This document shows positions 252 to 26,291 of a stretch of DNA of 32,829 nucleotides, piece by piece. Each line of letters starts with the position of its first letter. Positions within the stretch are counted from its first letter, which is position 1. Both the position numbers and the translations under genes were made by a program. The DNA lies in contig CACZBK010000032.1 in NCBI GenBank assembly GCA_902779395.1, positions 1 through 32,829 of the forward strand. The letters are read 5' to 3'. Origin of the DNA: an uncultured Lachnospiraceae bacterium. GTDB lineage: Bacteria > Bacillota > Clostridia > Lachnospirales > Lachnospiraceae. The notes beneath the pieces are model-generated. The model had not been told where the DNA came from, searched no databases, and was given only the letters and a program-made list of their open reading frames with translations.

Positions 252-266
252 CTTTTTTATTACAGT

Positions 267-290
267 AAATCCCGAAAGGGATTTTTTTTA
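267..290 (+). terminator. Rho-independent terminator after tRNA-Asn
   Basis: AAATCCC, a GAAA tetraloop and GGGATTT form a perfect 7-bp stem that runs into a T tract, 16 bp after the tRNA. It closes the rRNA/tRNA transcript. Confidence 0.85.
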
Positions 291-370
291 TCCGCGGGAG
301 ATTATAATAAAGTAGCAGTTTATTTATTCCATGCCGCGAATTAATTATGCGATAAAAACGGATTACATAT

Positions 371-398
371 TTCATAGAAAAAAAAGATATGGTATATT
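371..398 (+). promoter_or_regulatory. Candidate promoter placing the transcript start at the ATG
   Basis: TTCATA (371-376) and TATATT (393-398) are 16 bp apart. The -10 element ends only 6 bp before the ATG at 405, and no Shine-Dalgarno sequence is visible. If this promoter is used, the mRNA would be leaderless or nearly so. Confidence 0.35.
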
Positions 399-404
399 TT
401 TCTT

Positions 405-2117
405 ATGGAAAACAGTGCAAAAGCGAAAAAGAGATTGATACAGATTAGTCCGTTTATATTGGCTATAGCAGCTTATATTATTTATTGTTTTACCGGATCT
501 TTGTATCATGATTATGATAACTATTTCATAGCCATAATCTGTAATGGCTTATTGGGGAATAATAATTTCAGCCAATATACTCATCCGCTTCTTTGCCTGA
601 TATTACGATTGTTTAAATCATTCCTTCCGTCAGCAGATGTATTTACTGCTTTTGCACATTTTTTGCTTATTTTTGCACTGGGATGGATGCTGCAGATACT
701 TTTGGAGATCTTTGGTTCTGTTAGTGAAAGGATAGTCATAATTGCTTCTTTTCTTTATCTTTGTTTCGGAATTGTTCTTTGGAATATTAATTATACCGTT
801 TGGGCAGCTTTCTTATCATTTGTCGGTATTTTAGGGATTGTTTTTTCGGAAGATGGTAATAAAGGAATAAAGAGACAGATGACCGGGGCTGTTTTGTTCG
901 GCTTTGGAATGATGTTCAGATGGGAAGGATCATTTCTTCTTCTGCCCTATATTGCTTTGATCATATTGACCGGTCTTGCAGAAGATCATTTTTCAAAAGA
1001 AAGCATAAAAAGAACGGCAAAACGATTTATGCCTTGGTTAATAGTGATTTTTGGCCTCGGGATAGGTCGAAATGTGTTTTACTCGTTTGAACCCTGGAAG
1101 ACGGATCTGGCTTATGATAATGCACGAAGGATAATGGAAGATTTCCCGACACTGAGCTGGGATGAGATGCCTGTAATACCGGAAGGGGCAGATGAATATA
1201 CATATCGCGGTGTAACCCATTGGATGAATGCTGATACAGACGAAGTAAGTGCTGAAAAATTATCCGAATTTGTTGCACTCGGTAAGATTAACAAATATAA
1301 TTATGATGCTGAAGGATTGGGCAAAGCATTTATAGAACTTGGGATATTTCTATTTCAGGAAAAAGATGCACTTTTATTACCATTCAGTATACTTTTTTTG
1401 TTATGTATAAGCTCCAAAATGTCAAAATATCATTCTTTGGGGATCTGGATGGCTCTGGTGGGGACCTTTGTCATTATCCTGTATTTTATGATGCGGGGGC
1501 GGTTATTACTCAGGGTATGTCAGCCGCTTCTTTTAGCTCTTTTTATGATCAGTATTGTTTTTAAGTATGAAGCGGTCAAAGATGAAAAGCACATAAATCT
1601 TCCGATGGATATAGCGATAGGTATTCTTTTCCTGGTGGGATGTATAAGCTATGGAAAAGGTGTTTCAGCCGGGACAAATGTCTTTAATGCAGCGGACGGC
1701 AGACCGGAAGAACAATATGCATCCGTTTATGCAGAAGATAAGATCTATCTGCTTGGTGGGGTTTTAGAGAGTATCGATCTAGGCGGAATGTTAACGCAGG
1801 GATGGAATGGCATTGTATGGGAACTGATGGAGAAGGGAAGGCTGCCTTCAAAAGCTTTTCTCCGGCATTTTCTGCCGATAGGCATGTACTGGTATGGACA
1901 GGAGTACTACCGCAGCATGCTGGAGGAGATCGGTGTTAAAAATCCGATTACTGCGCTTTTCGAACAGGATAGAATGCGTTTATGGGATATGAGTGATGAT
2001 TCCGCATTCAGGGAATATTTTTTTGTATACCTTTATCGCTGCTATGGCGATATGGATGTAATAAAGGAAAAAACGATGAACGGTCATCAGGTTTATCGAT
2101 TTGAAAAGAAAAGATAA
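405..2117 (+). CDS. Multi-pass membrane protein, possibly GT-C/EpsG-like glycosyltransferase or polymerase
   Basis: This 570-residue protein has about nine to eleven hydrophobic segments, starting at roughly residue 14. Between the first segments is an acidic/aromatic loop (HDYDNY, then THPLL). That resembles the acidic first external loop of GT-C glycosyltransferases and the polysaccharide-polymerase-like EpsG group, but I cannot assign a family. The C-terminal ~150 residues are soluble and probably external. No ribosome binding site precedes the ATG, and a -10-like TATATT lies only 6 bp upstream. The stop at 2117 is 13 bp before the next gene, so the two are probably co-transcribed. This suggests a membrane enzyme acting with, or on, the secreted repeat protein downstream. 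The fold is inferred from hydrophobicity and one loop only. Confidence 0.75.
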   Translation: MENSAKAKKRLIQISPFILAIAAYIIYCFTGSLYHDYDNYFIAIICNGLLGNNNFSQYTHPLLCLILRLFKSFLPSADVFTAFAHFLLIFALGWMLQILLEIFGSVSERIVIIASFLYLCFGIVLWNINYTVWAAFLSFVGILGIVFSEDGNKGIKRQMTGAVLFGFGMMFRWEGSFLLLPYIALIILTGLAEDHFSKESIKRTAKRFMPWLIVIFGLGIGRNVFYSFEPWKTDLAYDNARRIMEDFPTLSWDEMPVIPEGADEYTYRGVTHWMNADTDEVSAEKLSEFVALGKINKYNYDAEGLGKAFIELGIFLFQEKDALLLPFSILFLLCISSKMSKYHSLGIWMALVGTFVIILYFMMRGRLLLRVCQPLLLALFMISIVFKYEAVKDEKHINLPMDIAIGILFLVGCISYGKGVSAGTNVFNAADGRPEEQYASVYAEDKIYLLGGVLESIDLGGMLTQGWNGIVWELMEKGRLPSKAFLRHFLPIGMYWYGQEYYRSMLEEIGVKNPITALFEQDRMRLWDMSDDSAFREYFFVYLYRCYGDMDVIKEKTMNGHQVYRFEKKR

Positions 2118-2130
2118 GAAGGAGGATATG

Positions 2131-5100
2131 ATGAAGAAAAAAGGAACGCAGCAAAAAATAGCTTCATTTATGAGTCTTGTAATGTTGCTGGGGACTCTGT
2201 TCACACCATTCGGACAGCCGGTTTATGCATCGGATACGGATGCAGAGACAGGGGAAGAGCAATTAATTGAAGCGGCAAGTGAAAATACCGTTGAAGATGT
2301 AATGGAGGAGCAGAGGATGAGCCTGGCGGAGCTGGCTGAAGAGTATTCAGTTCCGGAAGACAGGCAGGGTGAGAGTTACAAGATCATTTATATCATGGAA
2401 GAAGGGGTCAGTCTTAGAGAAGACTGGGAGAATAAACTGTCAGAAACCGGTAATGAAAGTATTTCTATGGGGGAAGATGGTCAGGTAATCCAGACTTTTG
2501 ATAAAGACAGTGAAGATATCCTGGCCCAATTGGTATATGTAAAGAATGGAAGTTTTACCCGCAGGGAATCCAGATGGAAATTATTTTATGAGGAAGAGGA
2601 ATATGTTCCTCCATATAGGGATTCTAAGGGATATTGGCATAATCCCGACCCAAGGATTGTTACCAAAACACTTATAGTTTCTGCAAATACAGCAGTGAAA
2701 ACATTGCAGCAATATGCTTTAAATGGTGTGATCCGTGTCTATCCCAACTGGGAGGATCCGGGGAGCCTGCTTCATGTTGATTTCCATTCCAATCTTGAAC
2801 CGGATTCCGTTAAGAGCATAGAGTTTAATCCCTCTGATCTGAGATTTGAAGTGCCCGGAAACCGTGATGAGCGTTTGCAGTTTAAAAATGATGGCTTCAT
2901 GGTTGTTTCATGGAATATCGTTCAGGACGGAAGCGGAGAGGGAACAGTTTATCGTCACACAGATGTAGATATGGAAGAGCTGCTGGAAATGGGCAGTGGT
3001 AATGGGAAAAGCTGGAAGCTGGATCTCTATGCTCAGTGGGAAAAGCTGTCTTATGACATGGTTTTCGACAGAAATATTGAGCAGCTTTCAGCAAAGGGAG
3101 TACAGGCGCTTGATCCCGGAGTTTCGACAAACGAGACAGATGATATAGCAAAGGATTATGCCTGGGATGAAACGGTATCAGTAAATGGATATACAACGGA
3201 TCATCCCGGTTATGAAATGCTTGGCTGGGCATTCACAAAAGATGCAGAAGAAGCAGTGATAACTGTAGATGGTTTATCGAAGCTGACGGCAGATGAAGTG
3301 TTCACGATGAAGGAAGCAAGCCCTGTTGCAGATGATAAGGAAAGTATGGTGCTTTATGCTGTATGGGGATATCATCAGTATAAGATCGTATACCGTGGTA
3401 TAAAGGTACTTTCGGCAAATGCGGTGTCAGAAAACAGTATTTCCGGCAATTCTTCTCTGACTTCAGCGGGAAATAACGTTGAAGATATTTCGGAAAGTGT
3501 TTTTTGCGATAATGCTCTGAAATATGAAATCCTGGGAGAAGAAGAAACGGCAGCGATCACAAAAGGTCTTCCGTTAACATATACAATAGGTGAGCAGTTG
3601 ATACTGCCGGGACCGGATTATATCAATGAAGGAGCAACAGATCCGGAATTTACTGATGAGTATGATTTCATATGCTGGACAAAAAATAAGTGGATGCGTG
3701 TAGATGTTCGTACTTTGGGCAAAAATGGAGATATCAATGGTAAAGACGTGCTGCTCTATGCCGTTTATAGCCCTAAGCAGATGACGGCATCGGTAAATGT
3801 GGCGCAGAGCGCATCTAAATTCAAAGTCCAGCAGATAAATACACTTAATCTGCTGGATTCCCGTGATTATGCCGTTATACGCATTACAGATACGGATTCC
3901 CATGCGGACATGCTGAGCGTAAGCTTTGATAACGGAAAGACGGAAACAGATTATTATGAGCTATGTGAGGTTGACAGTACAAAGGCTAAGCTTGGACAGG
4001 GCTATGCTACTATCGGAATAAAGCTTAAGGACAGTGTGAGAGCAGATAAGATCAAACAGGCAGAGACAGATAAAAAGCTTTTAATCCGTGTGCGTGGCGT
4101 GAATGATCCCGAAGGTTCTGAGCAGACTCTGAGCATTAAGCTCAAGACCGTATATAAGATTCCTTCCTTTAGATTCGATGCTAAAAGCGTGACCATTTTC
4201 CCTGCATTGACAGGAGAAGATGGAAAGGCAGAATTTATGATCAATGAAAAGAACGGTAATTTTAGCAGCTGTCTTTTGGCCGGAAAATGGGAGCTGGCTT
4301 ATGTAGATACGTCTAAAAATAATATTATAGATAATGTTGAGCTTAGCCTGACAGGAGATAACAGCATACTGCTTAATGCTTCAAAGGAGACGAATGTCAA
4401 AGGATATATCAGAATACGTAACACCAGCTGGATAGAAGGTGCATACAGTTATGTATCATTGCCGGTTAAAAACAGTACAAAGAAGGCATCGATAGTTATT
4501 ACGAAAAAAATTATCACATTAAATAATACATCTGAAAATGAAGAAGTATTTGTGGGTATAAAAACATCTGGAGGCATGATGACTGATGCGTTGGATTATA
4601 CGCTGACACCTGATAAAAAATGGCCGGAGAAAGGGCTTACGGCAGAATTGGTAAAAGGCGGTATCCGTATAAATGGTGCTAAAAATGTAAAGAAGGGAGT
4701 CTACATAATAAAAGTATCCTGTGAGGGTATGAAGAAAAAGCTTCTTAAAGTAAAAGTTGTGGATACGAAGGCAGAAAAGGCGCTGAAATTTAAGATCTAT
4801 GGTAAGGTTGATGCTGTTTATGGCGGACAGGTGTTTCTTAAACCGCAGATAAAAGGGTTTTCAGGTGAAATAGTTTCTGTTAAGCTTACAAAAGAATCTG
4901 TGGCTCTCGATCGGGAGGATCCGGAATTGATGCGTTATGAGGCTTTCTGGGATGGTGCGTATGTTGTATTGTCGGCAACTGATGATTTTCGTCCGCATAC
5001 GGAAAAAATAACGGAAACAGTAGAATTGACATTATCTACAGGGCAGAAACTTTCGACAGAGGTTGTACTTAACCCGGTCAAAGGAAAATTCAAGCTGAAC

Positions 5101-5448
5101 GCATTAAATGCTGTCGTATCAGGAAATAGCGTAAGCGTACCGCTGATGGCTTCATACACCTGGAAGTTTTATTACGGACCGAAAATCTGTGAGAAGCGTA
5201 TAAGTGATTTTGATATGACTAAGCCCGAAGTGAATGATATGATCAGGATAGAAGATCCGGGCAGTCTGAATAAGAAAGGCGTATATGCATTAAGCTACGA
5301 CAAAGGCATTATAACAGTCAATAAAGAGCCGGATCATAAGGCGGTCAAGAGCAGTGTTTATAAATTGAAGCTGCCTGCTGTATGGAGTGTGGACGGTAAG
5401 AAATACAGTGCGGTATTTGATCTTACCATAATGCCGGATGCGGAATAA
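2131..5448 (+). CDS. Large secreted protein with InlB/Flg_new-type repeats
   Basis: A 1105-residue exported protein. The start at 2131 is chosen because AAGGAGG (2119-2125) lies 5 nt upstream; an ATG at 2128 and an upstream TTG are poorly spaced. The N-terminus is a classic signal peptide (MKKK, hydrophobic core, cleavage after VYA). Blocks with the GYEMLGWAF...LYAVWG pattern match the Listeria-Bacteroides repeat (InlB B-repeat, beta-grasp) found in surface proteins of Firmicutes. The second half is Lys/Thr-rich and looks like serial Ig-like beta domains. No LPXTG sorting signal or C-terminal membrane anchor is visible, so it is either released or held non-covalently. It follows the membrane protein by 13 bp. 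Binding partner and function are unknown. Confidence 0.85.
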   Translation: MKKKGTQQKIASFMSLVMLLGTLFTPFGQPVYASDTDAETGEEQLIEAASENTVEDVMEEQRMSLAELAEEYSVPEDRQGESYKIIYIMEEGVSLREDWENKLSETGNESISMGEDGQVIQTFDKDSEDILAQLVYVKNGSFTRRESRWKLFYEEEEYVPPYRDSKGYWHNPDPRIVTKTLIVSANTAVKTLQQYALNGVIRVYPNWEDPGSLLHVDFHSNLEPDSVKSIEFNPSDLRFEVPGNRDERLQFKNDGFMVVSWNIVQDGSGEGTVYRHTDVDMEELLEMGSGNGKSWKLDLYAQWEKLSYDMVFDRNIEQLSAKGVQALDPGVSTNETDDIAKDYAWDETVSVNGYTTDHPGYEMLGWAFTKDAEEAVITVDGLSKLTADEVFTMKEASPVADDKESMVLYAVWGYHQYKIVYRGIKVLSANAVSENSISGNSSLTSAGNNVEDISESVFCDNALKYEILGEEETAAITKGLPLTYTIGEQLILPGPDYINEGATDPEFTDEYDFICWTKNKWMRVDVRTLGKNGDINGKDVLLYAVYSPKQMTASVNVAQSASKFKVQQINTLNLLDSRDYAVIRITDTDSHADMLSVSFDNGKTETDYYELCEVDSTKAKLGQGYATIGIKLKDSVRADKIKQAETDKKLLIRVRGVNDPEGSEQTLSIKLKTVYKIPSFRFDAKSVTIFPALTGEDGKAEFMINEKNGNFSSCLLAGKWELAYVDTSKNNIIDNVELSLTGDNSILLNASKETNVKGYIRIRNTSWIEGAYSYVSLPVKNSTKKASIVITKKIITLNNTSENEEVFVGIKTSGGMMTDALDYTLTPDKKWPEKGLTAELVKGGIRINGAKNVKKGVYIIKVSCEGMKKKLLKVKVVDTKAEKALKFKIYGKVDAVYGGQVFLKPQIKGFSGEIVSVKLTKESVALDREDPELMRYEAFWDGAYVVLSATDDFRPHTEKITETVELTLSTGQKLSTEVVLNPVKGKFKLNALNAVVSGNSVSVPLMASYTWKFYYGPKICEKRISDFDMTKPEVNDMIRIEDPGSLNKKGVYALSYDKGIITVNKEPDHKAVKSSVYKLKLPAVWSVDGKKYSAVFDLTIMPDAE

Positions 5449-5461
5449 TACGGATATGTAC

Positions 5462-5490
5462 TTGCGCAGCAGATATCAGCGTGATATAAT
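5462..5490 (+). promoter_or_regulatory. Promoter of the GMP synthase gene
   Basis: TTGCGC (5462-5467), a 17-bp spacer and a perfect TATAAT (5485-5490) lie 38 bp before the ATG. The gene therefore has its own promoter, separate from the secreted-protein gene upstream. Confidence 0.65.
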
Positions 5491-5528
5491 TCCACCATTA
5501 AAATTCTGAATAGTAGGAGGAATATATA

Positions 5529-6512
5529 ATGGCAACAGACAGAAGACCCGATGATATGGTACGTATCACAACACCTGAACTGGCGGATGCGTTTATTGCC
5601 GGACAGATTAAGGAAATACGTGAGCAGGTCGGGGATAAAAAGGTGCTGCTGGCTTTATCCGGCGGCGTTGATTCCTCAGTTGTAGCTGCATTACTTATTA
5701 AAGCAGTGGGTGATCAGCTGGTTTGTGTTCACGTTAATCACGGACTTCTTCGTAAGGGGGAGCCGGAGCAGGTAATAAAAGTATTCCGTGATGAGATGAA
5801 GGCCAATCTTATATATGTGGATGCTACAGACCGTTTCCTTGACAAGCTTGCCGGAGTTACCGATCCGGAAACCAAGCGTAAGATCATCGGCGGTGAATTC
5901 ATAGAAGTGTTTGCGGAAGAAGCAAGAAAGCTTGATGGTATCGAATTCCTGGCACAGGGCACCATCTGGCCGGATATACTTGAGAGTGAGGCGGGGATCA
6001 AAGCTCATCATAATGCAGGCGGTCTTCCCGAAGATATGAAGTTTGAGCTGGTCGAGCCTGTTAAGATCCTCTTTAAGGATGAAGTCCGTGTTGTAGGTGA
6101 AAGACTTGGACTCCCTGCAAATATGGTATACCGTCAGCCTTTCCCCGGCCCCGGACTTGGTGTACGTTGTCCCGGTGCTATTACCAGGGACAGGCTGGAA
6201 GCAGTTCGCGAATCCGATGCTATACTCCGTGAAGAGTTTGCCAGGAATGGTCTTGAAGGCAAGGTATGGCAGTATTTCACTGTAGTGCCTGATTTCAAAT
6301 CTACCGGTGTTAAGGATGGAAAGCGTACCTTTGACTGGCCCTGCATCATCCGCGCCATCAATACTACCGATGTTATGGAAGTTACCGTAGAACATCTTTC
6401 AAATGAACTTATCGATCATCTGGTAGAACGTATCATCAAAGAAGTACCGGGCATCAACAGAGTGCTTTTTGATTATACACCGAAGCCTCCGGCTACAGTC
6501 GAATACGAGTAA
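5529..6512 (+). CDS. guaA: GMP synthase, ATP-pyrophosphatase subunit (no glutaminase domain)
   Basis: The enzyme aminates XMP to GMP using ATP, the last step of de novo guanine nucleotide synthesis. The PP-loop SGGVDSS is at residues 44-50. The XMP-binding/dimerisation part follows, with PFPGPGLGVRCPG and an intact C-terminus ending ATVEYE. AGGAGG lies 8 nt before the ATG. The protein has 327 residues, whereas the usual bacterial GuaA has about 510-525: the whole N-terminal class I glutamine amidotransferase domain (~190 residues) is absent. There is no sign of truncation, because a clean promoter and ribosome site precede the ATG. It resembles the separate synthetase subunit of archaeal two-subunit GMP synthases. 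No glutaminase partner is in the window, so it may use ammonia or a subunit encoded elsewhere. Its 3' end looks like an integration site (see 12204 and 25434). Confidence 0.93.
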   Translation: MATDRRPDDMVRITTPELADAFIAGQIKEIREQVGDKKVLLALSGGVDSSVVAALLIKAVGDQLVCVHVNHGLLRKGEPEQVIKVFRDEMKANLIYVDATDRFLDKLAGVTDPETKRKIIGGEFIEVFAEEARKLDGIEFLAQGTIWPDILESEAGIKAHHNAGGLPEDMKFELVEPVKILFKDEVRVVGERLGLPANMVYRQPFPGPGLGVRCPGAITRDRLEAVRESDAILREEFARNGLEGKVWQYFTVVPDFKSTGVKDGKRTFDWPCIIRAINTTDVMEVTVEHLSNELIDHLVERIIKEVPGINRVLFDYTPKPPATVEYE

Positions 6513-6513
6513 A
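6501..6513 (+). other. guaA 3'-end attachment-like core, copy 1
   Basis: GAATACGAGTAAA spans the last codons (EYE) and stop of guaA. It matches the cores at 12216-12228 and 25434-25446 (GAGTACGAGTAAT) with two mismatches. The 3' end of guaA is a known target of tyrosine recombinases of genomic islands. The attachment role here is inferred. Confidence 0.5.
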
Positions 6514-6520
6514 GATCAGG

Positions 6521-6560
6521 TCCCGCAAGTCTTGAAAAATAAGGGCTTGCGGGATTTTTA
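6521..6560 (+). terminator. Terminator of guaA
   Basis: TCCCGCAAG (6521-6529) pairs with CTTGCGGGA (6546-6554), followed by TTTTT. A near-identical copy of this terminator sits at 12236-12277. Confidence 0.85.
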
Positions 6561-6576
6561 TAGATCGGAGACATAT

Positions 6577-7227
6577 ATGAAGTATGAAAATATAACACGC
6601 GCGGTATTTCTGAAGAGGCCTAACCGCTTTATAGCCGAGGTGGAGGTCGATGGTCATAAAGAGACAGTTCATGTAAAGAATACCGGCCGGTGCAGGGAAC
6701 TCCTGATACCGGGATGTGAAGTCTGGCTTACTGAACCCGGGACAGAGGGGAGAAAGACTAAGTATGATCTGATAGCGGTCCGGAAGAGTACAGGGGTATT
6801 ATTTAATATAGACAGCCAGGCACCTAATAAGGTGGTTAAGGAGTGGCTTTACGGGCAGGGGTATGACCGGATGATACCGGAATATACTTATGGTGATTCA
6901 CGCATCGACTTCTATATGGAACGCGGCAGTGAAAAGTATCTGATGGAGGTAAAAGGCTGCACGCTGGAGAGAGACGGAGTGGGATATTTTCCGGATGCAC
7001 CTACGGAGCGTGGTGTAAAGCATATACATGAGCTGATCAGGGCAAAGAAGGAAGGATACCGGGCGATACTTGCTTTTGCGATACAGATGGATGGAGTTAA
7101 AGAGGTAAGGGCGAATGTGGCTACACATCCTGAGTTTGGGGAGGCGCTCTCGGAGGCTGAGAAGAGCGGTGTGGAGATCCTGTTCCTGCAGTGTCATGTT
7201 GAACCTGATGAACTGGTGATAAGATGA
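6577..7227 (+). CDS. sfsA: SfsA-family DNA/RNA nuclease-like protein
   Basis: A 216-residue protein of the SfsA family (sugar fermentation stimulation protein). The family combines an N-terminal OB-like nucleic-acid-binding part with a PD-(D/E)xK nuclease-like C-terminal part. Visible family features are HVKNTGRC near residue 30, the nuclease-like DSRIDFY followed by EVKGCTLE, and the FPDAPTERG block. Length is about normal. The start at 6577 is set by GGAG at 6567-6570 and by alignment of MKYENI with family N-termini. A longer in-frame extension exists but would overlap guaA and its terminator. The biological role of SfsA is poorly defined. It lies 64 bp after guaA, behind guaA's terminator, so it needs its own promoter, which I could not locate. 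Confidence 0.9.
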   Translation: MKYENITRAVFLKRPNRFIAEVEVDGHKETVHVKNTGRCRELLIPGCEVWLTEPGTEGRKTKYDLIAVRKSTGVLFNIDSQAPNKVVKEWLYGQGYDRMIPEYTYGDSRIDFYMERGSEKYLMEVKGCTLERDGVGYFPDAPTERGVKHIHELIRAKKEGYRAILAFAIQMDGVKEVRANVATHPEFGEALSEAEKSGVEILFLQCHVEPDELVIR

Positions 7228-7300
7228 CTATTAAGAAGGGTGAAACTGCCAGACTCCAGTTCAGTTACTCAATGATGCAGACAATGATTTTTTGAGGCAG

Positions 7301-7333
7301 CAGGCCGGGGAGCAATCCCCGGCCTGTTTGTGT
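7301..7333 (+). terminator. Terminator after sfsA
   Basis: CAGGCCGGGG (7301-7310), a 6-nt loop and CCCCGGCCTG (7317-7326) form a perfect 10-bp stem followed by TTTGTGT. This GC-rich hairpin is the main structure in the 192-bp gap before the giant gene. A TATAGT at 7375-7380 could be the -10 of that gene, but no good -35 is seen. Confidence 0.85.
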
Positions 7334-7419
7334 AATTACCTACTTTTGGAGGTAGTCACCTGAAAAAAATAGGATATAGTATATGAATAGCACTGATTAT
7401 CAGACTGGAGGAAAATCAT

Positions 7420-10400
7420 ATGAAACGAATCAAAAGGATACTGGCATTGTTGCTGACTTTCATGCTGTGCATGGGGGAATTTGCTTCTACGGGCTTAACA
7501 GTATTAGCTGAAGGAGAGGATTATCCGGATACAGAAGAAGAAAATTCTATATCGGAAGAAGCAGATATCGCTGCGGAGGACGATATATCGCTTGACGGAG
7601 CTTCCGGCCGAAAAGGAGGCAGCATCATCAAAAATCAGAACAATACGATGCTGGGAACCGCAGGCATGGCCAAGGCAAAAATACCTATGTATAACAGTGA
7701 CCCCTGGCACGGGAGCTATGTTTATTACGGAAGATATGATGGTTCTCCCGTAAAGTACCGTGTATTGGACCGGTCGACTACGGAATATGATTTCTTTGGT
7801 CATTCCACGATCCTTTTGACTTCCGACAGTGTATTATATAAAACCCGTTTTGATTCCGGCAGTAAGTCCTGGAGTAAAAGCAATATCATGAAAGGACTTA
7901 ACGGGGAGGATTTCCTTGATAATGATGTCTTTTCAACTGTAGAGAAAGCAGCATTAACCGACAGCTATAAAAGTAAAAAGAGTGCTTATGACGGGAACGG
8001 AGAGTCTATTCTGGATTTTGCAGGATTAAACGGCGAAAAGATATTCCTTCTGGATGCGGCGGAAGCTACAAGAACTGCTTACGGCTTTTCGGGGCTTACA
8101 AATAAAACATCAACCCGATCAAATACCGATACCTGGTGGTTAAGATCTTCAAGCAGCAGCCTGGATTCAGCCGGGAGGGTAAGGGCAGACGGATCGATAT
8201 TTGATGATTTTGTATACAACGAAAACGGTGTGCGCCCTGCATTTAATATTGATCTTTCGAAGGTGATGTTTTCAACTGTTATAAACGGTACCAAGGGTGC
8301 GACAGATGCGGAGTATAAGCTTACGCTGAATACGGATAGGCTATTGACAAATATCTCATCAGGTCAAAAGGTTACTGTAATGTCAGGAAAGGTTACTGTG
8401 CCTTATATGGTTGGCAGGGACAGCAGCAGTCCTGTAGTGCCGGATGCATTATCAGTGATGATACTTGATAAGGCGTATAACTATGATGCAGGTAACAGTA
8501 ATACCGCAAATATCCTTTACCTTGGCAGACTCAGCATTTCCGGAGGATATTCTGATGCCGGAACAGCAACTTTTTATCTTCCGGAAGGACTTGATGTTAA
8601 CAAATGGGGAAGCACATACAAAGTATATATCTTTGCTGAACAGACCAACGATGATAAGTATACGGATTACGCAGGCATACCCTGCCAGATATCGAAAAGC
8701 GATCTGGATATAATTGAAGGTGTGACAGTTACCTTTAACGTCAATGGTCACGGAAAGGCACCTGAAGCCCAGATAATCGCAAAAGGAAGCAGGGCGGTAA
8801 AACCTTCCGATCCTTATGAAAAAGGATGGAAATTCAAGGGATGGTATACAGGTTATAATGAAAGGGGAAAACAATATGATTTTAATACTCCGGTTACGGA
8901 GGATCTGACACTTATTGCACACTGGTCAAGTGAAAAGGTGACAGTGACTTTTGATAATAACGGTGGCGGTACGGACACGGAAGCGCAGTCGGTATTTATA
9001 GGAAGCTGTGCCACAGAGCCCGAAGAGTCGGTTCGTGACGGCTATGCTTTCGGAGGATGGTATAAAGATGAGGAGTGTACGGAATCATTAAAATATGATT
9101 TCAGCACCCCGGTAAATGCAAATATCACTTTATATGCGAAGTGGTTAAAAAAGTATACTGTTACATTTGATGCCAACGGCGGAAGCGGCAGTATGGCATC
9201 TATTCAGGTTGCATATGGGAATGGTATCACACTGCCGGCATGTGAGTTTACAGCACCGGAAGATGAGATGGTATTCAGTACCTGGGAGGCTGCCGGAACT
9301 CATTATCCGGCAGGTACCATAAAGAAAATATATCAGGATACTGTATTTAAGGCAACCTGGTATAAGATGAATCTCCGGACAGTAAACTTCTACAATAATT
9401 ATGAAACATATAAAAGCGTAAGGGTGAAATACGGTGAGAAGGTTGAGGAGCCGGCAGCTCCTAAGCGGGAGAATGCTACTTTCATTGGATGGTATACATA
9501 CCGTGCAGAGGATAATAGAGCTAATGATGCATACCGTTATGATTTTGAAAAGCCTGTGAACAGCAACCTGGATCTTTATGCTGCCTGGACAGATGATACA
9601 ACTTATCATATATCTGTAAAAGAGAGTGAATTCGCGCCCGGTGGCAGTATTACGGTAGATAAGGAGTATGTAAAGATTAATGATGAGGTTACCATTACCT
9701 TATCACCGGAAGAGGGGTTTGAGCCGGATCATCTCAGCGGAATACCATATTATGAAAAGCGATTTGGCTGGGTACAGGATGCATGGGAAGTTCCAGTTGA
9801 AGGAAATACATACACATTCACGATACCTGATATGACGAAGGTAAGTGATAATGAGTATAAAAATATACGGATAGAAGCATATTTTAAGGTAAGCGACACG
9901 CATGAACATGATTTTGAGTATTATGACGGCATCCCCACAACATGTCATTCAAACGGGACTATGGATTATGTTGAATGTAAACTGTGTCATCATCAATATG
10001 AATGGATAAAAAAGACAGATACAATCGGAAATGATATAACAAACTGGCCGGAATCATGGAGGCAGCAATACGGATATCACGGGCATGATAAAGGAACGGA
10101 AGATATTGAAGAAAAGGCTCCCACATGTACAGTTTCAGGTAACGTAGCTTATACACATTGTCTTGATTGTGATGCGTGCCTGATAGGTCCTAATTACGCA
10201 CATGAAGGAACGATTGAGGATACTGTCATTCCCATAGATGTTAATGCTCATGAATGGGATACATCTACGATAACATATACCTGGGCGGATGATAATATGA
10301 GTGTTTCTGCCTCATGTATATGTAAGCATAACAGTACGCATTTACTGACGGAAGAAGTGGCTGTCACAAAAACGTATACTAAGGAACCCACTTGTGAAGA

Positions 10401-12081
10401 AGATGGTATAGTTAATTATATATCGGAGGCATTCACTAATCCTGAGTTCAGTATTCAATCAAAAACGGATGTGACGGTTGAGAAATACGGGCATGACTGG
10501 AATGAACCTGAATATGTGTGGAGTGAGGATCTTTTAAGTGTTACCGCAAGCATTAGCTGCAACAGGGATCATTCACACACGATCACGGAGACTGCCCCGG
10601 TAAGTATTAAGAACATGGACGGTTACAGGATCTGTTCCGCTGAGTTTACCAATGAGGTATTTGAGGATCAAGTTAGGGAAATAGCTGAGGTGAGGTTTGA
10701 TACGAATAAAACGATGGCCACGGATATGCCCAAAACGATGCTCGTTAATGTGGGTGATAAATTGGACAGACCGGAAAAAGATCCGAAAGCGGACGGACTT
10801 AAATTTGCAGGATGGTATTGCGAAGAGGAGTGCATAAGAAAGTATGATTTCGATGCATCGGTCAAGAAGGATACAGTGCTTTATGCAAGGTTTATAGATG
10901 AAAAAGCCGTGCTCTTTACTGTGAGCTTTAATATGCTGGGGCATGGAGATGCTGTCGCACCCCAGGAAGTGGAAGCCGGAAAGAGTGCTGTAAAGCCTGC
11001 GGATCCTTCAGAATACAGCTGGATATTTAAAGGCTGGTATACTGATGCAGGCTGTAAAGCTTCATATGATTTCAGTACTGCAGTAAGTTCGGATATAACC
11101 CTTTATGCCAGTTGGGAAAAGGATCCGATGATCATGGAAGGAGGACGGTCTGCGCTTGATTCTGTTCCGGAACTTAACAGTTCAACTACAGAACTTAATC
11201 TGGTAAAGGGACAAAAATTCAATATACCTCAGGGCTGGTATCTGGATAAAGGAAATAAGGCTGACAAAAAGATCATAAGCATCAGCAAATCAGGAGTGTT
11301 TAAGGCTAAGAAGGATGGCAGGGCCACCATATACTGCGGAGCTGATAAAGCTGTATCGGTAAACGTGATAGTACACAAGCCGGCGATAACAAAGGATACA
11401 AAAAAGCTTAAGCTGGATGCGGGAAAAACAGGGGTCATAAAAATTGAGGGATATGATGCTGATAAAATGCCTGTTCTTTTCTACAGTGCAAGTCCTGATG
11501 TGGCAACCGTAGATGAGTCAGGTGTGGTTACTGCCGTTGCCAAAGGAACCGCAAAGCTATCAGTATTTATCAACGGTAAGGAATTTAAGGCGTCTGTTCT
11601 GGTCAGTGAGCCTGAAACAGCAAAAAACCGAACCATGCATGTAGCAGTTGGTTCACAAAAAACTATAAAAGTTAAGGGGGTAAAGAACTGGAGCAGTGCT
11701 TCATCCGACATTGCGGAAATGAACAAAAAAGGGAGCAAGGTTAAAGCCGTGAATGCAGGAAAGACGGTGCTCAGTGCCAGTGCAAACGGTGTGGTTTATA
11801 CCATGGATTTCTATTCCGAAGACCTGACCCTCACCAATGCAGAGGGAACACTTAAAAAGGCCAAAGGAACAAATAAATATACGCTTGAACTTAAGAAGGC
11901 AACCGAAACAAATATATGCTTCAGTGATTCTGTGGATCAGGATATGATCTTTAAGAGCAGCAAAGCTGATATAGCATTTATTGATGAGTATGGCCGGGTG
12001 ACGGCAAGGAGCAAAGGAAAGTGCAAGTTTACTGCAAAAGCAGACGGAAAGACCATTACGATAACGGTTAATGTAATGTGA
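7420..12081 (+). CDS. Giant secreted repeat protein: DUF6273-like head, InlB-type repeats, BIG2-like tail
   Basis: A 1553-residue secreted protein. GGAGG lies 8 nt before the ATG. The signal peptide runs to about residue 30 (VLA|EG). An acidic linker precedes a DUF6273-like domain at about 95-290 (YYGRYDG, ILLTSDS, TWWLRS, GVRPAFNIDLS). Six Listeria-Bacteroides repeats (pattern VTFxxNG...FxGWYxD...LYAxW) start near residues 435, 507, 578, 652, 1089 and 1166. Between the fourth and fifth is a stretch with Cys/His clusters near residues 828-870, 900-920 and 989 (PTCHSNG, CKLCHHQY, APTCTVSG, CLDCDACL). The last ~250 residues hold BIG2/Ig-like domains (SPDVATVDESGVVTAVAKG). There is no LPXTG or terminal membrane helix. 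Such proteins are thought to be surface adhesins or matrix components in Firmicutes; ligand and function are unknown. It ends at a strong terminator. Confidence 0.9.
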   Translation: MKRIKRILALLLTFMLCMGEFASTGLTVLAEGEDYPDTEEENSISEEADIAAEDDISLDGASGRKGGSIIKNQNNTMLGTAGMAKAKIPMYNSDPWHGSYVYYGRYDGSPVKYRVLDRSTTEYDFFGHSTILLTSDSVLYKTRFDSGSKSWSKSNIMKGLNGEDFLDNDVFSTVEKAALTDSYKSKKSAYDGNGESILDFAGLNGEKIFLLDAAEATRTAYGFSGLTNKTSTRSNTDTWWLRSSSSSLDSAGRVRADGSIFDDFVYNENGVRPAFNIDLSKVMFSTVINGTKGATDAEYKLTLNTDRLLTNISSGQKVTVMSGKVTVPYMVGRDSSSPVVPDALSVMILDKAYNYDAGNSNTANILYLGRLSISGGYSDAGTATFYLPEGLDVNKWGSTYKVYIFAEQTNDDKYTDYAGIPCQISKSDLDIIEGVTVTFNVNGHGKAPEAQIIAKGSRAVKPSDPYEKGWKFKGWYTGYNERGKQYDFNTPVTEDLTLIAHWSSEKVTVTFDNNGGGTDTEAQSVFIGSCATEPEESVRDGYAFGGWYKDEECTESLKYDFSTPVNANITLYAKWLKKYTVTFDANGGSGSMASIQVAYGNGITLPACEFTAPEDEMVFSTWEAAGTHYPAGTIKKIYQDTVFKATWYKMNLRTVNFYNNYETYKSVRVKYGEKVEEPAAPKRENATFIGWYTYRAEDNRANDAYRYDFEKPVNSNLDLYAAWTDDTTYHISVKESEFAPGGSITVDKEYVKINDEVTITLSPEEGFEPDHLSGIPYYEKRFGWVQDAWEVPVEGNTYTFTIPDMTKVSDNEYKNIRIEAYFKVSDTHEHDFEYYDGIPTTCHSNGTMDYVECKLCHHQYEWIKKTDTIGNDITNWPESWRQQYGYHGHDKGTEDIEEKAPTCTVSGNVAYTHCLDCDACLIGPNYAHEGTIEDTVIPIDVNAHEWDTSTITYTWADDNMSVSASCICKHNSTHLLTEEVAVTKTYTKEPTCEEDGIVNYISEAFTNPEFSIQSKTDVTVEKYGHDWNEPEYVWSEDLLSVTASISCNRDHSHTITETAPVSIKNMDGYRICSAEFTNEVFEDQVREIAEVRFDTNKTMATDMPKTMLVNVGDKLDRPEKDPKADGLKFAGWYCEEECIRKYDFDASVKKDTVLYARFIDEKAVLFTVSFNMLGHGDAVAPQEVEAGKSAVKPADPSEYSWIFKGWYTDAGCKASYDFSTAVSSDITLYASWEKDPMIMEGGRSALDSVPELNSSTTELNLVKGQKFNIPQGWYLDKGNKADKKIISISKSGVFKAKKDGRATIYCGADKAVSVNVIVHKPAITKDTKKLKLDAGKTGVIKIEGYDADKMPVLFYSASPDVATVDESGVVTAVAKGTAKLSVFINGKEFKASVLVSEPETAKNRTMHVAVGSQKTIKVKGVKNWSSASSDIAEMNKKGSKVKAVNAGKTVLSASANGVVYTMDFYSEDLTLTNAEGTLKKAKGTNKYTLELKKATETNICFSDSVDQDMIFKSSKADIAFIDEYGRVTARSKGKCKFTAKADGKTITITVNVM

Positions 12082-12140
12082 CAAAAGTCATATAAAAGAT
12101 ATTTCTTTTTTCACTACAAAACAGACTGTTGCATTTATAT

Positions 12141-12182
12141 AATGAGTGTGTCAGATGGATCTGGCGCACTCATTATTTTTTA
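12141..12182 (+). terminator. Terminator of the giant secreted protein gene
   Basis: AATGAGTG (12141-12148) pairs with CACTCATT (12167-12174), and the pairing continues inward through CAGAT/ATCTG, giving a stem of about 16 bp. A T-rich tail follows. Confidence 0.85.
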
Positions 12183-12203
12183 TAGAGATACTCAGGTAAA
12201 GGT

Positions 12204-12277
12204 CCGGCAACTGTGGAGTACGAGTAATGATCAGGTCCCGTAAGTCTTGTAAAATAAGGGCTTGCGGGATTTTTTTG
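12204..12277 (+). repeat. Second copy of the guaA 3' end plus terminator (attachment-like site, copy 2)
   Basis: CCG GCA ACT GTG GAG TAC GAG TAA encodes PATVEYE-stop, the exact C-terminus of GuaA. It is written with different codons at several positions than the real gene at 6488-6512. The 3' flank (TGATCAGGTCCCG, then a hairpin with CTTGCGGG and a T tract) closely matches the guaA terminator. No guaA similarity is visible upstream of the proline codons. This is what a recombinase that carries or displaces a gene's 3' end leaves behind: one end native, the other from another host's allele. A decayed guaA duplication is the alternative. Confidence 0.75.
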
Positions 12278-12357: not shown

Positions 12358-12466
12358 TCAGGTTATATCTGGGCTCTTTTTTTCGACTTGGCTTGGCACC
12401 GGATAATATCGTACTGATATATTAAAGGCATAAATTACCAATATAACTATCATATCTGGGATTTCA

Positions 12467-12621
12467 GGAATAGGGTTAAATAGCACAAAGCTGCTGGAAT
12501 GAGGGAAAATAGCATGAAGCAGCTATATAAGGAATGGGATTAAATAGCACGAAGCAGCTATATAAGGAATAGGGATAAATAGCACGAAGTTGACATATAA
12601 GGATTAGAATTAAGCATCATG
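12467..12621 (+). repeat. Tandem 35-bp repeats
   Basis: Units start with GGAAT at 12467, 12496, 12531 and 12566, and a fifth partial unit (GGATT) starts at 12601. Spacing is 35 bp except for a 29-bp first unit that lacks the ATATAA end. The shared inner block is TAAATAGCACGAAGCAGC followed by TATATAAGG. Copies are contiguous with no spacers. The third unit is the best preserved and divergence grows at both ends. They lie between the guaA-end copy and the XRE gene, and their function is unknown. Confidence 0.85.
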
Positions 12622-13059: not shown

Positions 13060-13130
13060 TCGAATTCGATGGGAAAACTAAACTTATCGAATTCGATAAG
13101 TTTAAACAGGTCGAAATCGACTTGTTTAAA
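13060..13130. promoter_or_regulatory. Cluster of three TCGAATTCGA-type palindromes
   Basis: TCGAATTCGA occurs at 13060-13069 and again at 13088-13097, where it is the centre of a perfect 26-bp palindrome (13079-13104, arms TAAACTTA/TAAGTTTA). A third, nearly perfect 30-bp palindrome occupies 13101-13130 with core TCGAAATCGA and arms TTTAAACA/TGTTTAAA. They fill the gap between the XRE gene and the methyltransferase. They could be operators, or hairpins in the mRNA. The methyltransferase frame also runs open through them, reading the related peptides VEFDGK, IEFDKFK and VEIDLFK. Confidence 0.7.
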
Positions 13131-13151
13131 AATACGGAATGGAGGAGCAAT

Positions 13152-13733
13152 ATGTCGGATACCATAAAGAAAGATACGATACATGCTAAAGGCTTTGATA
13201 TTGGAATATATACTACGGATTATGAAAATGAGTTCATTCAAATCGTTCCTGAAGATTTGGATTTGCATGATTATGATGATGTAGCCGAAAACTATGATCT
13301 GTATCTTGAAGAGATGTATAAGAATGAAGATAATTACGCTGACTTTCGGGAATTCTATCTTGATTTTGCAAGACAATACGGAAGTGAAGGAGTGATCGAT
13401 ATCGCATGTGGGACAGGAGCTGTACTGCTTTATCTTGCAGAACACGGGATCTTTGCCGACGGTACAGACCTTTCCGAAGCCATGTGCCGTGTGGCTGATG
13501 AAAAGACAAAGAAGAGCGGCTTTAATCTTAATATTTTCCCTGCGGATATGACGACATTTAAAGGTGATCGAAAGTATTCCTGTGCCATTATTGCGCGAAG
13601 CGGATTTATGCATCTGACAACACCGGAATTGCAAAGGGCTGCGCTGATCAATATCCGTGAGAACCTGACAGATGGCGGAATGCTTACGTTTAATACTTTT
13701 GATCCGCATCCTTTTTTTAGGCACAGCAGATGA
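13152..13733 (+). CDS. Class I SAM-dependent methyltransferase, N-terminal part (frameshifted)
   Basis: A 193-residue product with the SAM-binding motif I VIDIACGTGAVLLYLAEHG, an acidic motif II region (DGTDLSEAM) and a motif IV-like stretch (CAIIARSGFMHL). GGAGGAG at 13141-13147 supports the ATG at 13152. The frame ends at TGA just after FNTFDPHPFF, and the rest of the protein continues in another frame from an ATG that overlaps the stop (ATGA, 13730-13733). The two parts together would give an ordinary ~310-residue small-molecule-type methyltransferase, so a one-base loss or sequencing error near 13715-13733 is likely. Translational coupling into two chains is the alternative. The substrate is unknown. 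Confidence 0.7.
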   Translation: MSDTIKKDTIHAKGFDIGIYTTDYENEFIQIVPEDLDLHDYDDVAENYDLYLEEMYKNEDNYADFREFYLDFARQYGSEGVIDIACGTGAVLLYLAEHGIFADGTDLSEAMCRVADEKTKKSGFNLNIFPADMTTFKGDRKYSCAIIARSGFMHLTTPELQRAALINIRENLTDGGMLTFNTFDPHPFFRHSR

Positions 13734-14086
13734 ATACGAAAGATACAGATTATTCATTGCGTCTTGGATATACGAATCATAACGGACAGCATGAAAGGAT
13801 CTACAATGCGATATCCTATGATCCTTATACGCAGATCATGAGCGGAAACTGGAAATTTGAAACGTTTGATGAAAACGGAAATATCGTGGAGGAAAGGATC
13901 CGGCCATTGAAGATGCGGCAGACTTATAGGCAGGAAATGAAATACCTCCTGGAACTTACCGGATATGAGATCGTTGATGTATATGGGGGATATCATAGAG
14001 AGAGCGGGGCGGGGGCGGCTAAAAATGTAATATGGTGTGTTCGAAAAATATTTCATGATTTCGGACCGGCTGCAGCCTGGACATAA
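13730..14086 (+). CDS. Methyltransferase, C-terminal part (out of frame with the N-terminal part)
   Basis: A 118-residue frame beginning NTKDTDYSLRLGYTNHNG and containing YDPYTQIMSGNWKFETFDE and RQTYRQEMKYLLELTGYE. This is typical of the beta-strand cap and last strands of the same methyltransferase. It has no SAM motif of its own and no separate ribosome site other than coupling through the ATGA overlap. The C-terminal tail after CVRK (residues 105-118) looks like extra sequence and may be altered. Unless expressed by frameshifting or coupling, it is part of a pseudogene. Confidence 0.6.
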   Translation: MNTKDTDYSLRLGYTNHNGQHERIYNAISYDPYTQIMSGNWKFETFDENGNIVEERIRPLKMRQTYRQEMKYLLELTGYEIVDVYGGYHRESGAGAAKNVIWCVRKIFHDFGPAAAWT

Positions 14087-16328: not shown

Positions 16329-16359
16329 CACCGGGGGAATATGGTAGAGGTAATAAATA

Positions 16360-17025
16360 TTGAAGATACTGATCGCAGAAGATGATAAAGATCTGCGTAA
16401 GCTTTTGTACGAACAGCTTACGGGGGAAGGATATACGGTAACAGCTGCGGCCGATGGCAGGGAGGCGTATGATAAGTTTATAAGCGAAGCACCTGACATG
16501 GCATTGCTTGATGTGATGATGCCGTATATGGACGGCTTTTCGCTTTTGACTAAAATACGTGAATCGTCGGATATGCCGGTTATATTCCTGACAGCCAAAG
16601 GTGATGAGACAGACAAAGTCAGCGGCCTGAGGCTTGGGGCTGATGACTATCTTGTGAAGCCCTGGAGCCTGAATGAGCTTTTGGCCAGGATAGAGGTGCA
16701 GAAACGCCACATAAAGAAAAGCAGTTCAATCGGTGATGTTGTGACTGTTGTCAATCTCAGAATGGATTTTGCTAACGGTATTATCGAAAAGAACGGAAAA
16801 ACCATAAGCCTTAATGCCAAAGAGTATCATATCCTTAAGTACCTTTCTGAGAATACCGGCAGGGTCGTGACAAAAAAGCAGATCTATCAGGCCGTGTGGC
16901 AGGATGAATATGTGTATGATGACAACACGATAATGGTGCAGATCTCGCATCTGAGGTCTAAAATAGATGATGATGAACATAAGCATATCGATACGCTTGT
17001 CGGTATAGGATACAGGTTTCATTAA
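16360..17025 (+). CDS. OmpR/PhoB-type response regulator
   Basis: A 221-residue DNA-binding response regulator. The receiver domain has the acidic pair D8-D9, the phospho-acceptor D51 (LLDVMMPYMDG), T in FLTAK and K in DDYLVKPW. The winged-helix output domain is typical (LNAKEYHILKYLSENTGRVV, VQISHLRSKI, GIGYRF). The start is TTG at 16360, because no ATG fits and AGAGG lies 9 nt upstream. It is co-transcribed with the histidine kinase 43 bp downstream. Direct 11-bp repeats ahead of the serine hydrolase gene (18357-18378) fit its expected binding pattern, making that gene a likely target. Confidence 0.93.
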   Translation: MKILIAEDDKDLRKLLYEQLTGEGYTVTAAADGREAYDKFISEAPDMALLDVMMPYMDGFSLLTKIRESSDMPVIFLTAKGDETDKVSGLRLGADDYLVKPWSLNELLARIEVQKRHIKKSSSIGDVVTVVNLRMDFANGIIEKNGKTISLNAKEYHILKYLSENTGRVVTKKQIYQAVWQDEYVYDDNTIMVQISHLRSKIDDDEHKHIDTLVGIGYRFH

Positions 17026-17068
17026 AGATTCAGAAGCGGATCTAAATGCAGATCAATAATATAGGACC

Positions 17069-18337
17069 ATGGAAATAAACACAAGACACAATACACCGAC
17101 GCTGTTGATAAAAAGGTTTTTCTTTTTTGCGGTTGTGACGATCGGATTGTCTCTACTGCCTCTTTTATTGTTATTTATATCTATGCATGCATATCAGCCG
17201 AAAACTGTCAGGCGTATTTCTGCGGCGGAAAGGATCACATCTCAGGCTAAAGATGTTGATGTTTCGGATTACATTGCTGATGGCGGGAGCGCCATGATCG
17301 TGGGCAAAGATCTGAAAGTAACTTTGCTCGGAGGAAATCCGATATGGAATAAAGCAGCATTTTCAGAGGAAGAATGGACTCATTTCTTGATAGATATAGA
17401 TGGAATGAACGGCTACCAATATGATATTGCTTACCAAAGTGGCAGTGACGGATACTGGCTTGTTATGAGAAAGCCGGTGGCGGTAACGATATCATTGGCG
17501 CTGTTTTTTAATCCCGAGGCTGAAGATTTTATCGCTGTTTTCATCAGATTTCTATTGCCTTTTTCTGCATATTTCGTAGCGGTCGCGGCATTTGTGATAC
17601 ATTTTTCCAAGCGTACAGCAAACGAGATGAAGGCCAGAGAGGAGCTTCTTCACAGTGAGGAAGAGAAGCGTATGCTGTTGGTTTCAGAGATTTCCCACGA
17701 CCTGAAAACGCCTCTTGCAAGTGTGCAGGGATACAGCGAAATGCTACTTTCAAAGGACGTTGATATTCAAAAACAGCGTGAGTACCTGCAAAGCATACAT
17801 GATAATTCTGTGCGGTCGAACAATATCCTGCGTTCGCTGTTCACGTATTCAAAGCTTGGAAGTGCAGGCTTTAAACCCAATACAGAGCGCACTGATATCT
17901 GTGAATACACAAGGCAGATCATCGCAGAGTATATTCCGGTATTTGAGGAAAAAGGCTTTGGATATGAGCTTGCAGTTCCTGAAAATGAGCTGATCGTCAG
18001 CATAGACAAAGAGCTTTTCAGAAGAGTATATGATAACCTTATTGAAAATGCGTTGAAGTATAATGCCGCAGGCACAAAAATCATGATCGGCGTTGAGAAT
18101 AAGGAGTCATCAGTTGAGATAACAATAGCTGATAACGGTATCGGTATCCCTGCGGAATATACAGACAAGATATTTCTGCCTTTTTTCAGGGCAGATATAG
18201 CTTCATCAAACCGTGACGGAAGCGGGCTGGGTCTCGCTATCGTTCGTCAGATAGTCACGCTGCACGCCGGCGATATTTCCTACACCGGAGATGAAGGCGG
18301 ATGCAGGTGGCTTATCATTATCACCAAAGATAAATAG
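17069..18337 (+). CDS. Sensor histidine kinase
   Basis: A 422-residue kinase with a first transmembrane helix at about residues 15-38, an external region of about 110 residues, a second helix near 155-180, then HisKA with ISHDLKTPLASVQGYSEML (phospho-acceptor H210). The HATPase domain has the N box (YDNLIENALKYN), G1 (DNGIGIP), an F-box-like region (IFLPFFRAD) and G2 (GSGLGLAIVRQI). All catalytic boxes are present. It partners the response regulator immediately upstream. The external sensing loop has no recognisable family, so the signal is unknown; the cell-wall-type hydrolase behind it hints at envelope sensing. Confidence 0.93.
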   Translation: MEINTRHNTPTLLIKRFFFFAVVTIGLSLLPLLLLFISMHAYQPKTVRRISAAERITSQAKDVDVSDYIADGGSAMIVGKDLKVTLLGGNPIWNKAAFSEEEWTHFLIDIDGMNGYQYDIAYQSGSDGYWLVMRKPVAVTISLALFFNPEAEDFIAVFIRFLLPFSAYFVAVAAFVIHFSKRTANEMKAREELLHSEEEKRMLLVSEISHDLKTPLASVQGYSEMLLSKDVDIQKQREYLQSIHDNSVRSNNILRSLFTYSKLGSAGFKPNTERTDICEYTRQIIAEYIPVFEEKGFGYELAVPENELIVSIDKELFRRVYDNLIENALKYNAAGTKIMIGVENKESSVEITIADNGIGIPAEYTDKIFLPFFRADIASSNRDGSGLGLAIVRQIVTLHAGDISYTGDEGGCRWLIIITKDK

Positions 18338-18356
18338 TGAGCGTCCCGCGGCCTCA

Positions 18357-18378: not shown

Positions 18379-18392
18379 GTGATATGCCGGTT

Positions 18393-18445: not shown

Positions 18446-18448
18446 ATT

Positions 18449-23157: not shown

Positions 23158-23264
23158 CAACAGCAGGTTGCGTGATTTATATATCTCACAGTATTAAACT
23201 GATAGTGTAAAATCCAAGGCGCAGCGAAGATGATCTTGTGTTATACCGGGTGAAGCGTATTACA

Positions 23265-23293: not shown

Positions 23294-23313
23294 AAACACA
23301 GGAGGTATCGATC

Positions 23314-25504: not shown

Positions 25505-25532
25505 TGATAACAAAATGATAACACTTGATAAC
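25505..25532 (+). repeat. Three TGATAAC direct repeats (integrase arm-site-like)
   Basis: TGATAAC occurs at 25505-25511, 25516-25522 and 25526-25532, that is, every 10-11 bp on the same face of the helix. The setting, between an att-like core and a recombinase gene, matches arm-type binding sites. Compare AAAATGATTCC twice at 12281-12302. Confidence 0.6.
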
Positions 25533-25719: not shown

Positions 25720-25926
25720 ATGAGTTGTCTGACCAGGTGTTGGATAGTGATACCTCCAGGCATCGTATTCATCCTGGTTTCTGAAAGTTACGCCTATAAG
25801 CTGATAAGAAAGCTTAACAAAGAAATGAAGGAAATGGGATTTCAGACGATTCAGGGAAGGATCGATACCAAATTCTTCTATGAGCACTTTTATCAGACCA
25901 GGGATTATGAGAGGAGGAATGCTTAA
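25720..25926 (+). pseudogene. Excisionase-like small protein, N-terminally decayed
   Basis: The C-terminal two thirds, beginning SESYAYKLIRKLNKEMKEMG and continuing FQTIQGRIDTKFFYEHFY, match the HTH of small excisionase-like proteins encoded just ahead of integrases in Clostridia integrative elements. The upstream part (SCLTRCWIVIPPGIVF) does not look like the expected N-terminus, and the ATG at 25720 has no ribosome site, so the start has been lost or altered. Its TAA overlaps the integrase ATG by one base, the usual coupling of such pairs. Confidence 0.55.
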
Positions 25927-26291
25927 TGCCGGTATATAAGAATGAAAAGAACGATACCTGGTATGCGATGATACGCTACAAGGACTGGACCGGGACGAAC
26001 AGGCAGAAATGTCAGAGAGGTTTTTCTACTCGTAAAGAAGCTATTGAGTGGGAAGCTCAGTTTAAGCTTCAGCAGGCATCGGATATCGATATGACGTTGG
26101 AAGCTTTCTATGAACTATACGAAAAGGACGTTAGACCAAGACTTAAGGAAAACACATGGATGACAAAGCAGGTCATATATGAAAAAAAGATCCTTCCTTA
26201 TCTTGGAAAACGCAAGCTTTCAGAAATAACCGCAAAGGATGTGATCGACTGGCAGAATGAGATGATGCGTTTGACGAAAGCCAATGGTTGA
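25926..26291 (+). pseudogene. int: Tyrosine recombinase (integrase), truncated after the N-terminal domains
   Basis: 121 residues remain of a protein normally about 380-400 long. Present are the arm-DNA-binding domain (YKNEKNDTWYAMIRYKDWTG, RGFSTRKEAIEWE) and the SAM-like core-binding domain (LSEITAKDVIDWQNEMM). The catalytic domain with the R-H-R-Y residues is absent. Sequence after KANG (26288) is unrelated, pointing to a deletion. AGGAGG at 25911-25916 and the TAATG overlap with the preceding gene are intact. The enzyme cannot recombine DNA, but it could still bind arm sites. It marks the region as a former integrative element. Confidence 0.85.

Follow-up and report, generated by a model that had tools for sequence, protein, structure and literature searches.

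A repeated guaA 3′ end in an uncultured Lachnospiraceae bacterium and the probable decay of integrative islands at this site

The attachment of integrative elements at the 3′ end of guaA is of a kind already known, this site having been established for GIsul2 (PMC9376610), Tn5801-like islands (PMC4844618) and streptococcal ICEs (PMC4701971), as far as the accessible parts of these papers describe them. According to the accessible text on GIsul2 and the CR2-sul2 unit, the core GAGTGGGA lies in the last guaA codons, three att sites (attL, attLR and attR) are distinguished, and the CR2-sul2 unit is mobilised by the GIsul2 integrase (PMC9376610). Tn5801-like islands are associated with 11-bp imperfect direct repeats at guaA in the part of the report consulted (PMC4844618). 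A literature search, with most subscription journals outside it, found no papers joining Lachnospiraceae, guaA and an integrase. Here, we describe a 32,829-nt stretch of DNA from an uncultured Lachnospiraceae bacterium (contig CACZBK010000032.1; hereafter, the window), in which the guaA end occurs twice. On balance, we consider it likely that the guaA 3′ end is the attachment site of accreting and decaying integrase islands and that one of them has left its fossil left end at position 12203. The second copy illustrates well a process that is already known, not a new one. The features discussed are listed in Table 1.

Table 1. Features of the guaA locus in the window
Feature	Position	Strand	Basis or remark
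guaA (327 aa, without glutaminase domain; presumed attachment site at its 3′ end)	5529..6512	+	ORF; GMP_synt_C; TIGR00884 guaA_Cterm
Repeat copy 1: present guaA 3′ end and terminator, without arm repeats	6488..6559	+	Repeat search, folding, alignment
sfsA	6577..7227	+	First ~75 nt diverged from G017 about like guaA, rest 96–97% identical
1553-aa repeat protein, predicted secreted (N-terminus, by eye)	7420..12081	+	Listeria-Bacteroides repeats, Big_2, DUF6273
Orphaned leader region of ABC-transporter gene	12082..12202	+	12086–12202 matches G017 at 100%; in G017 the gene comes next
Repeat copy 2: last eight guaA codons and terminator hairpin, at junction with foreign DNA	12203..12274	+	Repeat search, G017 comparison
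Two identical 11-bp direct repeats, ATGATTCCAAA	12284..12305	+	Read as candidate arm-type sites of the left end of an integrase element
Imperfect 35-bp repeat in four copies, just within the element end	12461..12594	+	Spacings 29, 35, 35
Third guaA-end core, GAGTACGAGTAA	25434..25445	+	At the place of the guaA core GAGTGGGA given in the accessible text of PMC9376610
Three TGATAAC repeats, spacing 11 and 10	25505..25532	+	Read as decayed arm sites of a third element end
Truncated tyrosine-integrase gene (121 aa), arm-binding and SAM-like domains only	25926..26291	+	Arm-DNA-bind_4, Phage_int_SAM_3

The repeated guaA end and its layout

The two copies form a direct repeat of 72 nt, in which a repeat search and a direct count gave 65 identical sites (90%). 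Four of the seven differences lie in the coding end and three after the stop codon, and the four coding differences are all silent changes at third codon positions (Ala, Thr, Val and Glu). Folding of the 70 nt after each stop codon gave terminator-like hairpins of −27.9 kcal/mol for copy 1 and −23.2 kcal/mol for copy 2. The guaA-end pattern matched the window twice, a number reached by none of 100 shuffles (mean 0.00), and a 99-nt query around copy 2 matched these two places only at E ≤ 0.001 in the genome (3.58 Mb, 56 contigs). Over the 72 sites, copy 1 differed at seven positions from copy 2 and at seven from the guaA end of G017, the sister genome and closest relative; copy 2 and G017 differed at ten. 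These results confirm the preliminary description of the locus, which had reported a guaA 3′ end repeated with silent changes and followed in both places by a terminator, and whose coordinates and 1553-aa ORF were correct. Its doubt about a simple DNA duplication is likewise upheld: plain duplication within the genome can be ruled out because the four coding differences are all silent and arm repeats are joined to copy 2 only.

The guaA of the window is not the only GMP synthase gene of this genome, as a full-length one (540 aa) is present on contig C18 (L087 2599–4221). Two guaA genes were also found in G280, G283 and G286. Upstream of the window gene, approximately 5.2 kb containing ORFs of 570 and 1115 aa (254–5515) separates tRNA-Asn from guaA; this DNA is absent there in G017, where the gap is ca. 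190 nt.

Two marks of a guaA-specific element were found at copy 2, namely an element boundary marked by a directly repeated guaA 3′ end and candidate arm-type repeats beside the core. The order is guaA 3′ end, hairpin and then the paired 11-bp repeats 56 nt past the stop codon. Repeats with a spacing of 11 located 55–61 nt after the guaA stop codon were shared by copy 2, G113, G280 and the viral contigs L155, L157, L158 and L162, and in G007 the repeats were at 47 nt after the stop codon and the hairpin was weaker. A strict repeat rule, which was fixed after the pattern had been seen, held for 8 of 34 guaA ends (copy 2 included) versus 38 of 20,000 random positions in the fetched loci, a pool that still contains guaA loci. 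Copy 1 and the guaA end of G017 did not satisfy this rule. One tyrosine integrase family occurred near guaA in G113, G280, G283 and the viral contigs L154, L155, L157, L158 and L162, and an integrase was thereby located near six of the eight ends that satisfied the rule (G113, G280, L155, L157, L158 and L162). L154 has the same sequence as L155 at the guaA end and was left out of the test. G283 contained the integrase and failed the rule; G007 and copy 2 had the repeats and no integrase match in the stretch read. Among the 12 viral loci with the guaA-end pattern, an integrase match was found in five and none in seven. A search for the right end in G280, G283 and G286, based on similarity to the left end, gave nothing convincing.

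Further to the right in the window, the third guaA-end core is followed by the TGATAAC repeats from 59 nt on and then by the integrase stub, an arrangement that fails the strict repeat rule. The stub shares 37% identity with the G113 integrase and 44–45% with that of G280, both of which lie near guaA. Within the window, it was the sole clear match of tblastn searches with three integrase queries, which found no intact tyrosine-integrase gene there; between 12203 and 25433, neither these searches nor Pfam analysis of the ORFs scanned identified an integrase gene. No right end (attR) was found in the window, and a Pfam scan of 24 ORFs between 12203 and the window end, together with four ORFs before 12203, detected no relaxase or conjugation families, the ORFs left out of the scan being mostly small or antisense. 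The right part of the element may be lost. From their layout, we read 12203 and 25434 as fossil left ends in the guaA orientation, the one at 25434 being shorter and more decayed. The earlier proposal of a recombinase acting at the guaA 3′ end stands insofar as integrases occur near guaA in the family, copy 2 has the marks of an element end and its silent changes agree with the end of a formerly complete guaA gene. The window itself retains only the 121-aa stub.

Several other features were observed to the right of 12203. A methyltransferase ORF within 13122–14086 ends at 13733 and is overlapped by a second ORF (13730–14086) that matched no Pfam family; the two might represent one split gene. 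A perfect 26-bp palindrome (13079–13104) lies upstream of the methyltransferase. A two-component pair and a beta-lactamase-family gene (16341–20195) have an 84% identical copy on G024:C46, and a short dispersed repeat (23245–23310) had, among the matches listed, 30 across the G017 contigs and one in G010.

Extra guaA ends in related genomes

An eight-codon guaA-end pattern with one mismatch allowed was present in 12 of the 35 genus genomes and in more than one copy in two of them (G000 and G010), and a looser eight-codon pattern was present in 135 of 397 family genomes. Pairs of ends sharing a contig and a strand were examined in G248, G101, G280, G286 and G283. Extra ends without a second gene were found in G248 and G101. 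The pairs in G280 and G286 were rejected as arrays, each representing two separate guaA genes. In G010, distances of 7.5 and 7.7 kb separate three guaA ends, and copies 1 and 3 had 484 bp in common (95.7% identity), beginning at the first base of the window repeat. The left edge of the homology thus coincided to the base with the start of the window repeat in G010 copy 3 and to within 3 nt in G248, and it lay further upstream in G010 copy 2 (13 nt) and G101 (66 nt). The last eight codons differed from copy 1 at four positions in the window, three and two in G010, one in G248 and none in G101. All 10 differences across these extra ends were at third positions, one being common to both G010 copies, which indicates that the extra copies were selected as coding ends.

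The extra ends in G010, G248 and G101 had no spaced repeats and no integrase match, and no integrase was found in the G010 units, either in the 10 ORFs scanned or by tblastn. The genes in the G010 units encode rhomboid, SUKH, DUF4037, TIR, GNAT, GH127 and PARG proteins; in addition, a 62-bp tandem repeat follows the first guaA end of this genome. In G101, a 2.1-kb AbiEi–AbiEii unit (PADLOC; L102 1515–3680) is situated between two guaA ends that are 98.9% identical over 91 nt. As a speculative extension, rumen Lachnospiraceae and their relatives might build open-ended guaA arrays of small integrase-less units, each with a working guaA 3′ end that serves as a reusable docking tag for the integrases of neighbours; we offer this idea tentatively and think it has a modest chance of being correct.

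DNA between the copies and the junction at 12202/12203

G017 was collinear with the window from 5515 to 12202, comprising guaA, the terminator, sfsA and the 1553-aa gene, and its whole genome contained one guaA-end match, copy 2 being absent. The degree of similarity varied greatly along this segment. Identity to G017 was 85% for guaA (834/984 nt), 95% for sfsA (620/651) and 98.2% for the 1553-aa gene (4579/4662), with corresponding fourfold-site identities of 81/160, 80/88 and 627/648. The 1553-aa gene was also 98.5% identical to that of G032 (4592/4662), and the G017 and G032 genes were 98.7% identical to each other (4603/4662). G032, a second relative, has kept this gene (98.3% over window positions 7131–12095) with different genes downstream. 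In a 9-kb stretch of G000:C21 with ATP-synthase-like genes (by eye), 8.3 kb were 81% identical to G017, and the three pieces that matched G032 had identities of 84%, 78% and 80%. Because the 1553-aa gene is 98.2% identical to that of G017 versus 85% for guaA, these comparisons indicate that it has been exchanged between species recently. The locus is thus a record of movement between rumen species, at ca. 98% identity, of a 4.7-kb gene that encodes a large repeat protein.

The junction of guaA and sfsA behaved differently. Identity to G017 was 87.6% over 6488–6576 and 89.5% over 6577–6700, followed by 96–97% up to the end of sfsA. Since the 88–90% identity from the guaA end to ca. 75 nt into sfsA is near the value for guaA and below that of the following DNA, this junction did not travel with the 1553-aa gene, and the adjacency of guaA and sfsA looks old. 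In tblastn searches of 20 guaA loci, some with little DNA after guaA, sfsA was found in that of G017 only. It had matches in 21 of the 35 genus genomes; full-length sfsA and a guaA relative were on different contigs in G001, G002, G007, G009, G010, G026 and G033, and in the remaining genus genomes, apart from the window and G017, the guaA or sfsA match was missing, partial or weak. No guaA was present in five further neighbourhoods of sfsA that were read. Given that the guaA–sfsA junction is almost as diverged as guaA, the copies are not simple bounds of an imported block. The preliminary description had suggested imported cargo between the copies; the recent exchange of the 1553-aa gene agrees with this, but a matched attL/attR pair bounding the block is not supported, as G017 has guaA, sfsA and the 1553-aa gene in the same order with a single guaA-end match. 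It had also proposed seeking an empty site in relatives; G017 is without copy 2, keeps sfsA and the 1553-aa gene beside guaA, and continues differently beyond them.

At 12202 the match to G017 ends. In G017, an ABC-transporter ATPase gene (by eye) follows, and its contig stops ca. 500 nt past this point of departure; the window retains the leader over 117 nt, and the gene itself was not found there. G017 had one leader and ABC module among the candidates scored (16/31). On G000:C21, a diverged copy (82%) of the leader and gene is preceded by different upstream genes and was therefore rejected as the DNA that would follow on the right in G017. At 12203, it is probably the window that has changed, because there the ABC leader is orphaned and the foreign DNA opens with a guaA end. 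The arm repeats further indicate that copy 2 belongs with the DNA on its right, its left edge cutting the ABC-transporter leader. Inspection by eye showed no likeness between the guaA site and the sequence of G017 at the joint, so that integration at a secondary site lacks sequence support.

Three other explanations were considered. The sfsA–1553-aa block could be a unit that an integrase inserted at the guaA end, its bounds being copy 1, brought in with it, and copy 2, the end that was displaced. The clear mobility of the 1553-aa gene between species, the common starting base of the extra copies in G010 and G248 (the same or within 3 nt) and the G010 units, which lie between guaA ends without a detected integrase, are consistent with such an event. 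However, G017 runs from 12202 into the very gene whose leader the window retains, the DNA from 6488 to ca. 6650 is only slightly closer to G017 than guaA is, and copy 1 has no arm repeats; this explanation is therefore improbable. Less probable still, copy 2 might be the stump of a whole second guaA, tandem or imported, of which a deletion spared only the final 25 nt, stop codon included. Four exclusively silent coding differences would be expected of a once-complete gene, and the left end of an integrated element does sit on a complete guaA, but the same left edge in G010 copy 3, and nearly the same in G248, is unlikely for random deletion ends, and repeat and similarity searches found no further guaA similarity upstream of 12203. 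An assembly chimera at 12202/12203 is very unlikely: the window comes from a 56-contig assembly, and the same junction was found in none of the 34 other genus genomes and in no relative among the 397 family genomes (the window's own included), but the copies share no identical run longer than 24 nt, and at the joint blastn did not match the G017 continuation with copy 2.

Proposed history and comparison with known systems

Under our preferred reading of copy 2 as the fossil left end of an island, elements with a guaA-specific tyrosine integrase would insert at the guaA 3′ end again and again, a working guaA end, a hairpin and arm sites arriving with every insertion, and would then decay. Copy 2 would be a guaA 3′ end that once completed the guaA reading frame, followed by its hairpin and paired 11-bp arm sites and integrated by a guaA-specific tyrosine integrase that has since been lost. 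This fossil end would have been joined to the ABC leader by secondary-site integration or an illegitimate joint, which would have removed the ABC-transporter gene from its place. The silent codon changes could then be explained by selection on each copy as a working guaA end at a time when the two were not yet neighbours. As a point against this reading, the repeat starts ca. 13 nt before the position of the guaA core GAGTGGGA in the last codons, as given in the accessible text on GIsul2. Taken together, the sequence features suggest that the window probably holds a decayed tandem array of islands at guaA. In ordering guaA islands and their fossils, silent changes within the repeated ends can be of help, and the combination of a guaA end, a hairpin and two 11-bp repeats ca. 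56 nt after the stop codon provides a signature by which such elements could be found in fragmented genomes.

As judged from the accessible parts of the published descriptions, the locus resembles GIsul2 in its guaA 3′ attachment, in more than one att copy in tandem and in a third core at the same codons, and the movement of a unit by the integrase of the island is a further likeness (PMC9376610). In contrast to GIsul2, the elements of the window are decayed and belong to a relative within the Lachnospiraceae, genes for sulphonamide, arsenic or CR2 functions were not observed, and copy 2 is separated from guaA by 5.7 kb that includes other genes. Tn5801-like islands are similar as integrase elements of Gram-positive hosts located at the guaA 3′ end and flanked by its imperfect repeats, as far as the part of the report consulted describes them (PMC4844618), whereas the ORFs scanned in the window contained no conjugation genes or tet(M) and the integrase is a stub only. 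The site and the type of repeat are shared with the streptococcal ICEs, as they are described in the accessible text (PMC4701971), from which the present locus differs in that its repeat also covers the terminator and that it is an old array.
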